From: a virus | Strand: one strand, 5' to 3' | IMG/VR virus record: IMGVR_UViG_3300012268_000006 | Coordinates: 1-20,442 of that record | Length of the DNA: 20,442 nucleotides | In this document: positions 1,330-2,796 of the stretch, piece by piece | Layout: the number at the start of each line of letters is the position of its first letter | Numbering within the stretch: position 1 is the first letter of the stretch | Position numbers and translations under genes: made by a program | Notes under the pieces: model-generated | The model's input: the letters and a program-made list of their open reading frames with translations, nothing else | Told to the model about the DNA's origin: nothing | The model's database searches: none

Positions 1330-1540
1330 CTCTTGTTCATTTATGAACATAGCTGTGCCAAGCTCTGTCCCCCTGGGGCCGGGCCGACCCACCTCCGTGG
1401 TATGGATTTTGAGGGTGAGCCTGTCAAGTTTTTGAAACAGAACAAATGACCTGTTTGGAGGCAGATACGTAGGACAATGTTCTGCTTTCCTTGGTTCAGA
1501 GAGAACATATGTTCTGCCTCAGATACTAAATGCAGAACGA

Positions 1541-1568
1541 TTGACTTATTTTCATGGTTCTCTATATG
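1541..1568 (+). promoter_or_regulatory. Sigma70-like promoter for rightward tRNA array
   Basis: TTGACT (1541-1546) and TATATG (1563-1568) are separated by 16 bp. Transcription from it would start around 1574-1576, essentially at the first base of the first tRNA (1575), so the array could be made with almost no leader. This is inferred from the consensus match only. Confidence 0.5.
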
Positions 1569-1574
1569 AGGGGG

Positions 1575-1648
1575 TGCGAGCTGGTGTAGTGGTAACACGG
1601 AGAGTTCATGCCTCTCAGCTATGGGTTCGATTCCCATGTTCGCAACCA
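1575..1648 (+). tRNA. tRNA-Met (CAT)
   Basis: Acceptor TGCGAGC/GTTCGCA (one G-T pair), D-arm GTGT-AGTGGTA-ACAC, anticodon stem GAGAG/CTCTC with loop TTCATGC (anticodon CAT at 1607-1609), T-arm ATGGG-TTCGATT-CCCAT, A73 and encoded CCA (1646-1648). The fold is canonical. Position 37 is G rather than the usual A. The CAT anticodon cannot by itself separate elongator Met from lysidine-modified Ile. T1-A72 pairing argues against initiator Met. Confidence 0.9.
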
Positions 1649-2271: not shown

Positions 2272-2345
2272 TGGTACTAGGCAAAGGATTTGAACCTTCC
2301 TGACAACGGTTCACAACCGTGTCCCCTAACCCGTAGGAGCCTAGC
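2272..2345 (-). tRNA. tRNA-His (GTG), A73 and no G-1
   Basis: Acceptor GCTAGGC/GCCTAGT, T-arm GAAGG-TTCAAAT-CCTTT, anticodon loop TTGTGAA (GTG at 2314-2312), encoded CCA. The discriminator is A and the base before position 1 is T, so the G-1/C73 pair used by most bacterial His tRNAs is absent. Alphaproteobacterial tRNA-His is known for A73 and lack of G-1, which makes this a host clue. The D-stem CCTA/TAGG sits one base closer to the acceptor than usual. Confidence 0.85.
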
Positions 2346-2360
2346 ATATTCTTTCGTCTC

Positions 2361-2468
2361 TGGCCCAAGGGACTGGATTTGCACCAGTATCTCCGGGTCA
2401 ACCACCCGGTATCCTATCTGTCGGGACGATGGGTAGACCCACAATCACCTATGTTAGAAGACCCTTGG
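2361..2468 (-). tRNA. tRNA with GTT-like anticodon and 32-nt insertion
   Basis: Read leftward from 2468: CCAAGGG (2468-2462) pairs perfectly with CCCTTGG (2371-2365), then G73 and encoded CCA (2363-2361). Inside are D-arm GTCC-CGACAGATA-GGAT, anticodon arm CCGGG-TGGTTGA-CCCGG, variable AGAT and T-arm ACTGG-TGCAAAT-CCAGT. Between acceptor and D-arm lie 32 extra nt bounded by TC on both sides and containing the hairpin TGGG-TCTA-CCCA; removing them leaves a standard 73-nt tRNA. Anticodon by position is GTT (Asn), but position 33 is G instead of T. The alternative, an uninterrupted tRNA ending at 2433, pairs only 4 of 7 acceptor bases. Confidence 0.65.
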
Positions 2469-2549: not shown

Positions 2550-2554
2550 AATCT

Positions 2555-2631
2555 TGGTGTACCGGCAGGGATTCGAACCAAGAGCTTTACGGTTAACAGC
2601 CGTACCCCCCTGCCAATAGGGGCCGTGGAGA
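2555..2631 (-). tRNA. tRNA-Asn (GTT), mispaired acceptor
   Basis: Anticodon arm TACGG-CTGTTAA-CCGTA is perfect and gives GTT. The D-arm CCCC/GGGG with a GG-containing loop is good, and the T-loop TTCGAAT and encoded CCA are present. However, the 3' acceptor CCGGTAC has no matching 5' strand at the expected position (TCTCCAC pairs 2 of 7), and the T-stem CTTGG/CCCTG has two mismatches. A73 replaces the G73 usual for Asn. It may be a decaying gene, or one needing repair of its acceptor. Confidence 0.65.
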
Positions 2632-2642
2632 ACAATTAAATA

Positions 2643-2719: not shown

Positions 2720-2796
2720 TGGTCTCTCTGGTAGGATTTGAACCTACGATCTTCTGGTCCCAAACCAGACGACTTACCAGACTAGCCTACAGAGAG
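2720..2796 (-). tRNA. tRNA-Pro (TGG)
   Basis: Acceptor CTCTCTG/CAGAGAG perfect, D-arm GGCT...AGTC with CTGG in the loop, anticodon stem TCTGG/CCAGA with loop TTTGGGA (TGG at 2762-2760), T-arm GTAGG-TTCAAAT-CCTAC perfect, A73, encoded CCA. Canonical. Confidence 0.93.

Follow-up and report, generated by a model that had tools for sequence, protein, structure and literature searches.

Conserved RNAs of tRNA-like fold that probably do not decode, encoded in and beside the tRNA clusters of unrelated bacterial viruses

Introduction

The described RNAs that come closest in kind to the element studied here are RNA C and RNA D of phage T4 and RNA1 and RNA2 (and RNA3) of phage T5. RNA C and RNA D, also referred to as species 1 and 2, are stable RNAs, 139 and 119 nt in length, whose genes lie within the phage tRNA cluster and whose function is unknown (PMC3014915, PMC9697503). 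RNA1, RNA2 and RNA3 of T5 likewise lie in a tRNA cluster, where they are annotated as tRNA-like and have no known function. The element resembles these T4 and T5 RNAs in its location in a phage tRNA cluster, its tRNA-like ends and its apparent lack of decoding. RNA C has a tRNA-type T arm at its end, and T5 RNA2 combines an acceptor-like stem, which by eye has 8 bp, with a T arm but otherwise has no standard tRNA body. Unlike the element, however, three of these RNAs carry canonical T-loops, UUCGAAU in RNA C and UUCGAAU and UUCAACU in T5 RNA2 and RNA1, respectively. They were rejected as homologues because the two covariance models of the element's family (R1 and R2, described below) score RNA C, RNA D and T5 RNA1-3 at or below tRNA background; RNA C reaches 15 bits with R1 and 10.6 bits with R2, below most true tRNAs, and R2 finds no match above tRNA background in T5 RNA1 or RNA2.

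A U54-G55 T-loop as in the element occurs in the staphylococcal cell-wall tRNA-Gly, in which GUGC stands in place of GTPsiC. Those tRNAs retain their anticodon and a normal D-arm, unlike the element.

Mimicry of tRNA is also known from the bacterial Y RNA YrlA (Rfam RF02553), which contains a tRNA-mimicking domain and has been proposed to be a nuclease inhibitor (PMC7790460). The RF02553 model has no match at the element and only sub-threshold matches elsewhere, in contigs L063 and L083. YrlA has a separate Ro60-binding stem, whereas the ends of the element themselves form its acceptor stem. GOLLD and ROOL, finally, are phage non-coding RNAs of unknown function that are often found near tRNA islands (PMC12286853). 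They are far larger than the element (many GOLLD RNAs exceed 800 nt), their fold is unrelated to it, and neither has an Rfam match there.

Genomic setting

The window, that is, the whole stretch of DNA analysed, comprises 20,442 nt (20.4 kb; positions 1 to 20,442 of IMG/VR record IMGVR_UViG_3300012268_000006) and comes from a roseophage of the N4-like kind (Schitoviridae), of which it is one piece. The best isolate matches of its terminase are Rhodovirinae N4-like phages, and its tRNA array region is best matched by Sulfitobacter phage phiCB2047-B. The array consists of two convergent tRNA clusters, at about 1575-2183 on the plus strand and 2876-2190 on the minus strand, which meet at about 2183/2190 with only about 6 nt between their last genes. 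The element is located in the minus-strand cluster, flanked by tRNA-Phe (2475-2549) and tRNA-His (about 2272-2346); it starts 6 nt after tRNA-Phe, a tight spacing already pointed out in an earlier note on this DNA.

Several other genes of the array are unusual as well. The tRNA-His(GTG) at 2272-2346 (minus strand) is not called by ARAGORN, and its counterpart in phiCB2047-B is annotated as a pseudo tRNA-OTHER. On the plus strand, three more tRNA-like genes (1655-1729, 1737-1828 and 1850-1931), whose D arms are odd or short, go uncalled by ARAGORN; by eye these are an Ala (TGC), a degenerate one and a Ser (GCT). An Asn(GTT)-like gene at 2552-2640 (minus strand) is apparently a chimera, its 3' end matching the tRNA-Lys of the related contig L002 and its body tRNA-Asn; Lys and Ile seem to have been lost through a deletion between GGTTCGAATCC repeats.

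Architecture of the element

In the earlier note the locus was read as a tRNA split by a 32-nt insertion between acceptor stem and D-arm. Its ends are indeed tRNA-like, with a T arm, a GCCA end and the perfect 7-bp acceptor that the note had described (CCAAGGG with CCCTTGG, followed by G and CCA), and the element does carry about 32 bases beyond the length of a tRNA, a hairpin among them. The position of these bases is a different one: in an alignment with 18 relatives, as in any ordinary tRNA, a D-stem strand comes directly after U8-C9 and finds its partner further downstream, which places the extra hairpin within the D-loop (Table 1). This hairpin, reported as TGGG/CCCA, is present and is longer than was stated. 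Nor does taking out the 32 nt yield the standard 73-nt tRNA that had been anticipated, as the resulting 73-mer has a D-arm of 2 bp in its predicted fold, a G at the U33 site and G55, and is not called by ARAGORN. The 108-nt form, folded by itself, has just a modestly low energy (z = -1.8, with 11 of 200 shuffles as good), and the case for its structure therefore rests on comparison.

Table 1. Parts of the tRNA-like element in the window, with the observations that bear on each (R1 and R2, covariance models of the family)
Feature	Positions	Strand	Observation
Whole putative non-decoding tRNA-like RNA, 108 nt including encoded GCCA	2361..2468	-	Models R1/R2 88-101 bits (window is a training sequence); same-place homologues in L002, L006, L007, L012
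Acceptor stem 5' strand CCAAGGG	2462..2468	-	Pairs with 2365-2371; 7/7 pairs changed on both sides across relatives
U8-C9 linker	2460..2461	-	Invariant 19/19
D-stem 5' strand UUCU (relatives GUCU/AUCU)	2456..2459	-	Pairs with 2411-2414; 75/76 cells paired in the family; 10-25 is U-U in the window
Enlarged D-loop, 41 nt, A14 A15 at start, A21 at end	2415..2455	-	A14 and A21 invariant 19/19
D-loop hairpin GG.GAU.GUGGG-UCUA-CCCAU.GUCCC	2423..2449	-	In minimum-energy folds of window, L007, L013b, L013c, CBB, GAP32, RaK2, EJP2
D-stem 3' strand GGAU	2411..2414	-	19-member segmentation
Anticodon-like arm CCGGG-UGGUUGA-CCCGG	2393..2409	-	Stem kept by covariation; loop not conserved; no U33
4-nt variable region AGAU (Y48)	2389..2392	-	RRAY 19/19; 15-48 mostly A-U, G-C in L131
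T arm ACUGG-UGCAAAU-CCAGU, G55 replacing U55	2372..2388	-	T stem 94/95 cells paired; U54 19/19; G55 16/19
Acceptor 3' strand CCCUUGG, nt 73 (G) and CCA	2361..2371	-	CCA right after nt 73 in 13/19

Standard annotation passes the element over. ARAGORN at default settings calls no tRNA there, the Rfam tRNA model RF00005 gives no match to 2361-2468 even at E <= 10, and Rfam 15 has no matching family at the element. A tmRNA was considered and rejected, as ARAGORN finds none in the window, no Rfam tmRNA model matches the element and the family is just about 105-125 nt long.

The contacts 8-14-21, 15-48 and 54-58 belong to the core of the established tRNA structure (on tRNA core contacts see also PMC4810234). 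Among the 19 family members compared, U8, C9, A14, A21 and U54 are identical throughout and A26 is kept in 17, although A21 was one criterion for placing the D-stem, so that its invariance, in distinction to that of the other residues, is partly a matter of choice. In all but one of the 19 the 15-48 pair is A-U or G-C; the exception is L013a, with A-C. The core helices (acceptor, D, anticodon and T) and the residues of the 8-14-21 and 15-48 contacts are thus those of a tRNA, whereas the elbow residues that would form G18-U55 and G19-C56 are not: position 55 is G (16 members) or A (3 members), position 56 is variable, and the T-loop of the family reads UGNAA in place of the UUCRA of canonical tRNA. 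The variable region conforms to RRAY in every member.

On the anticodon side the stem is kept by covariation and the loop is not conserved. In the roseophage copies it measures about 4-7 nt, and in those from jumbo phages its place is taken by a hairpin that contains an internal loop; in phages GAP32 and CBB the arm is wholly different despite about 86% identity over the stretch. No anticodon loop of the standard kind (7 nt, U33, a conserved triplet) is found, the 19 members differing in both size and sequence of the loop (UGGUUGA in the window). As, moreover, no relative without the hairpin was found, the comparison lends no support to the earlier supposition that a normal decoding tRNA lies beneath. 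The letters of the acceptor vary freely and nt 73 can be G, A or U. Since the core fold and its residues are conserved while the anticodon loop is not and the T-loop is altered, the element is very probably a conserved phage-encoded non-decoding tRNA-like RNA. Judged from its sequences, the family appears to be derived from tRNA, with the acceptor/T-arm stack and the tertiary core kept, decoding lost and an extra hairpin in the D-loop.

Relatives in other viruses

Four roseophage-like contigs (L002, L006, L007 and L012) have a related stretch in the same place, adjoining tRNA-Phe; in a fifth, L001, this stretch is identical to that of the window. An alignment of the window with the four shows GUCGUCUAA directly after the acceptor, GAUAGGAYAC ahead of the anticodon-like stem and GGUGCAARUCC in the T arm. 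The covariance model R1, trained on these five copies, detected three tandem copies in the 76-kb contig L013 with 47-60 bits, ordinary tRNAs scoring up to about 37 bits. A nucleotide similarity search of phage records with the element itself returned nothing useful, and the relatives in jumbo phages were reached only by a degenerate pattern scan of viral contigs, which led to L084, from a 371-kb virus (42.9 bits). Similarity searches from L084 then extended the set to Erwinia phages Kaldavass and pEa_SNUABM, Xanthomonas phage XbC2, Serratia phage BF, Pectobacterium phage CBB and Cronobacter phage GAP32. Where the records were inspected, the jumbo copies lie shortly after a tRNA-Ala at one end of the tRNA run and have no RNA annotation; in Kaldavass, a short hypothetical ORF is annotated over the element. 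A second model, R2, trained on the five sequences of R1 together with L013, L084 and the jumbo copies, added copies in Klebsiella phage RaK2 (35 bits) and in the schitovirus contig L131 (39.5 bits), and a similarity search from RaK2 added K64-1, other Klebsiella phages and E. coli phage EJP2. For both models, the scores of training sequences are high by construction. The L131 copy, at 1501-1619 (plus strand), has no tRNA gene within 1.5 kb on either side, lies directly 3' of a terminator-like hairpin and has a second TCGTCTAACATAGGACAC motif nested inside its enlarged anticodon-side arm.

Several unrelated groups of bacterial viruses thus encode an RNA of this kind, most members being located within tRNA clusters or adjoining them. 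The family is unannotated and absent from Rfam, and a literature search, to which subscription papers were mostly inaccessible, found no description of it. The uninterrupted homologues against which an alignment had been suggested were not found, the hairpin being present in every relative recovered.

In viral contigs, matches to a degenerate pattern of the kind used are almost exclusively family members. Among the genomes of 84,980 species of bacteria and archaea, two such patterns yielded nothing credible, a result to be read with the blindness of these patterns to divergent copies in mind, as the first of the two missed CBB, and RaK2 and L131 would escape both. Six matches to the patterns in bacteria were taken as chance because none was a credible match to the model, and an R2 search of 56 bacterial genomes, which was prefiltered, had no positive control and is thus weak, gave no match. 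Most loci carrying CTGGTGCAAATCCAGTCC turned out to be chance occurrences or ordinary tRNAs. Pattern matches in L098 and L099 were rejected, as they score 19 bits and lie without tRNA genes in coding-like sequence. Searches of named Rhodovirinae records, phiCB2047-B included, with R1 or R2 produced no credible match, so that the distribution of the family is patchy.

Covariation and folding

Support for the fold comes from alignment A4, in which 15 sequences and 20 core pairs (acceptor, D, anticodon-side and T) make up 298 cells. The core pairs are formed in 98.0% of these cells, compared with a mean of 75.8% in shuffles and 32-53% when slid by 1-3 columns, and the covariation score is 0.726 versus 0.275 +/- 0.023 in shuffles, none of 500 shuffles reaching the observed value. 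Double changes occur in 14 pairs, and compensatory change affects every one of the seven acceptor pairs as well as four pairs of the T stem. The first acceptor pair, for instance, is found as AU, CG, UA and UG among the relatives, and the spread of pair types at each acceptor position would be hard to explain otherwise. The earlier note had looked to conservation of CCAAGGG in homologues; its letters are not conserved, whereas its pairing is, by compensatory change. In the segmentation of all 19 members, 130 of 133 acceptor cells are paired (D-stem and T-stem in Table 1). Both data sets lean towards structure, as A4 was fitted to the model and the segmentation took 3' strands partly by pairing, and the counts of pair changes overstate the number of events since the members are not all independent.

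Unguided minimum-energy folding gives the proposed architecture for RaK2, K64-1, EJP2, CBB and GAP32, which in the case of RaK2 offsets the low model score. The folds of L006, L013a and L084 depart partially from the cloverleaf, and that of L131 shows none.

Exchange between close phages

Over 7.3 kb, the window and L002 share 98.5% identity, yet this drops to just 64% at the element and to 88% at the adjoining tRNA-Phe, while the tRNA-Gln and tRNA-His next door are 99-100% identical; the fold of the element is kept through this swap. Between the window and L006 the element is 92.5% identical, tRNA-Phe 93.3%, tRNA-His 90.7% and the neighbouring gene 72%. These comparisons show the element being exchanged as a cassette between close phages.

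A similar swap concerns the tRNA-Pro of the window (2720-2796, minus strand), which has 71% identity to the tRNA-Pro of L002 in nearly identical surroundings and by which tRNA genes, too, appear to be exchanged one by one.

Alternative explanations and possible function

The comparison indicates that the element is neither a broken nor an intron-split tRNA. An unusual intron, a retained extra hairpin and a recombination scar had all been considered in the earlier note, and it is the retained hairpin that the comparison backs. In the intron scenario, the D-loop hairpin would be removed after transcription to leave a normal decoding tRNA. The hairpins of L007 and L002 do lie between GATAGG repeats, and by inspection the removal of hairpin plus one repeat leaves a short D-arm; in that reduced form of the window ARAGORN at a lowered threshold calls a tRNA-Thr(ggt). 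At default settings, however, the reduced 73-mers are not called, and the scenario is made highly improbable by an anticodon loop that varies from 4-7 nt to a large hairpin with no conserved triplet after U33, by a T-loop without U55 in all members and by the presence of the hairpin in every member found, with no continuous copy among them; nor is any bacterial system that splices tRNA D-loops known to us. Still less credence can be given to a decaying tRNA pseudogene or a recombination scar. Damaged tRNAs do exist in the array, such as the Asn/Lys chimera, and the D-stem of the window contains one U-U mismatch, but for the family as a whole this explanation is excluded by the compensatory changes in all seven acceptor pairs, to which those in four T-stem pairs are added. 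The identity of the element to its L006 counterpart, similar to that of tRNA-Phe and tRNA-His and above that of the neighbouring gene, likewise stands against decay.

If established tRNA biology applies, the non-decoding RNA would be transcribed together with the tRNA array, and its tRNA-like ends and tight spacing suggest that host RNase P would cut its 5' end at 2468 and that the 3' end would be trimmed. Copies without an encoded CCA would have it added by the host enzyme, and the product would be a stable RNA, about 105-108 nt long, for which the ribosome has no use. One might speculate that this RNA occupies a host or defence protein which reads the acceptor, T-arm and core of tRNA, its specificity possibly lent by two modules, the D-hairpin and the changeable arm on the anticodon side. 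By analogy, a role as decoy or competitive inhibitor of an enzyme reading the tRNA body is the leading, if tentative, proposal, and it would account for the conserved core, the free anticodon side, the loss of decoding and the fast swapping. Its main rivals are a diverted aminoacylated RNA and a cis-acting role. For the former, in which the charged RNA would be kept from the ribosome and its amino acid carried for another purpose, one can cite the T-loop shared with the staphylococcal cell-wall tRNA-Gly and the CCA encoded in 13 of 19 members; no constant aminoacylation identity is visible, though, given the free acceptor letters and nt 73 and the missing anticodon, and we consider it improbable. 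There is a similarly small chance that the element serves in precursor processing or spacing, or as a cis-acting leader of the next gene, and is functionless once released. Such a role would fit the element of Mimasvirus and Eneladusvirus, which lies about 65-75 nt upstream of a same-strand gene (a structural protein in some annotations), and the L131 copy, which is found just after the terminator-like hairpin and upstream of an ATG, but it is at odds with the roseophage copies, which sit between two tRNA genes with no protein gene next, and with the three tandem copies in L013.

More tentative than the decoy role itself is the combined view of one tRNA-mimic family, common to N4-like roseophages and enterobacterial jumbo phages, that would act in trans as a decoy and rapidly exchange its arms. 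The jumbo and roseophage groups may instead carry the same RNA derived independently from tRNA-Gln/Glu/Asp-like genes, which we regard as rather unlikely. The D-arm letters (UCGUCUAA, UAGGACA) equal those of the L013 tRNA-Gln, which R2 scores at 36 bits, R1 gives the jumbo copies 35-43 bits, near the best true tRNAs (36 bits), and between the two groups no alignment of the D-hairpins is possible; against separate origins, both groups have in common G55, the RRAY variable region, the D-loop hairpin and the loss of the anticodon. On account of the R1 scores and the D-arm letters, common descent of the groups is less certain than their shared architecture.

What a phage gains from a tRNA that is unable to decode becomes a testable question now that the family offers numerous members, a consensus that has been measured and residues that are clearly conserved, the more so as members occur in E. 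coli jumbo phage EJP2 and in phages of Klebsiella, Serratia and Pectobacterium. Should the RNA be a decoy, this would point to host defences that target the body of the tRNA and not its anticodon. Since tRNA gene finders overlook such RNAs, phage tRNAs that look split or degenerate are better compared with relatives before introns or pseudogenes are called.

A further unannotated RNA was observed beside tRNA-Phe in L002 (4609-4694, minus strand) and L007 (635-730, minus strand). It is a conserved stem-loop, GGGCUAUCAGCUCAC...GGGACAAGUCGGCUCGACCUG, closed by a terminal stem that varies; the window lacks it.
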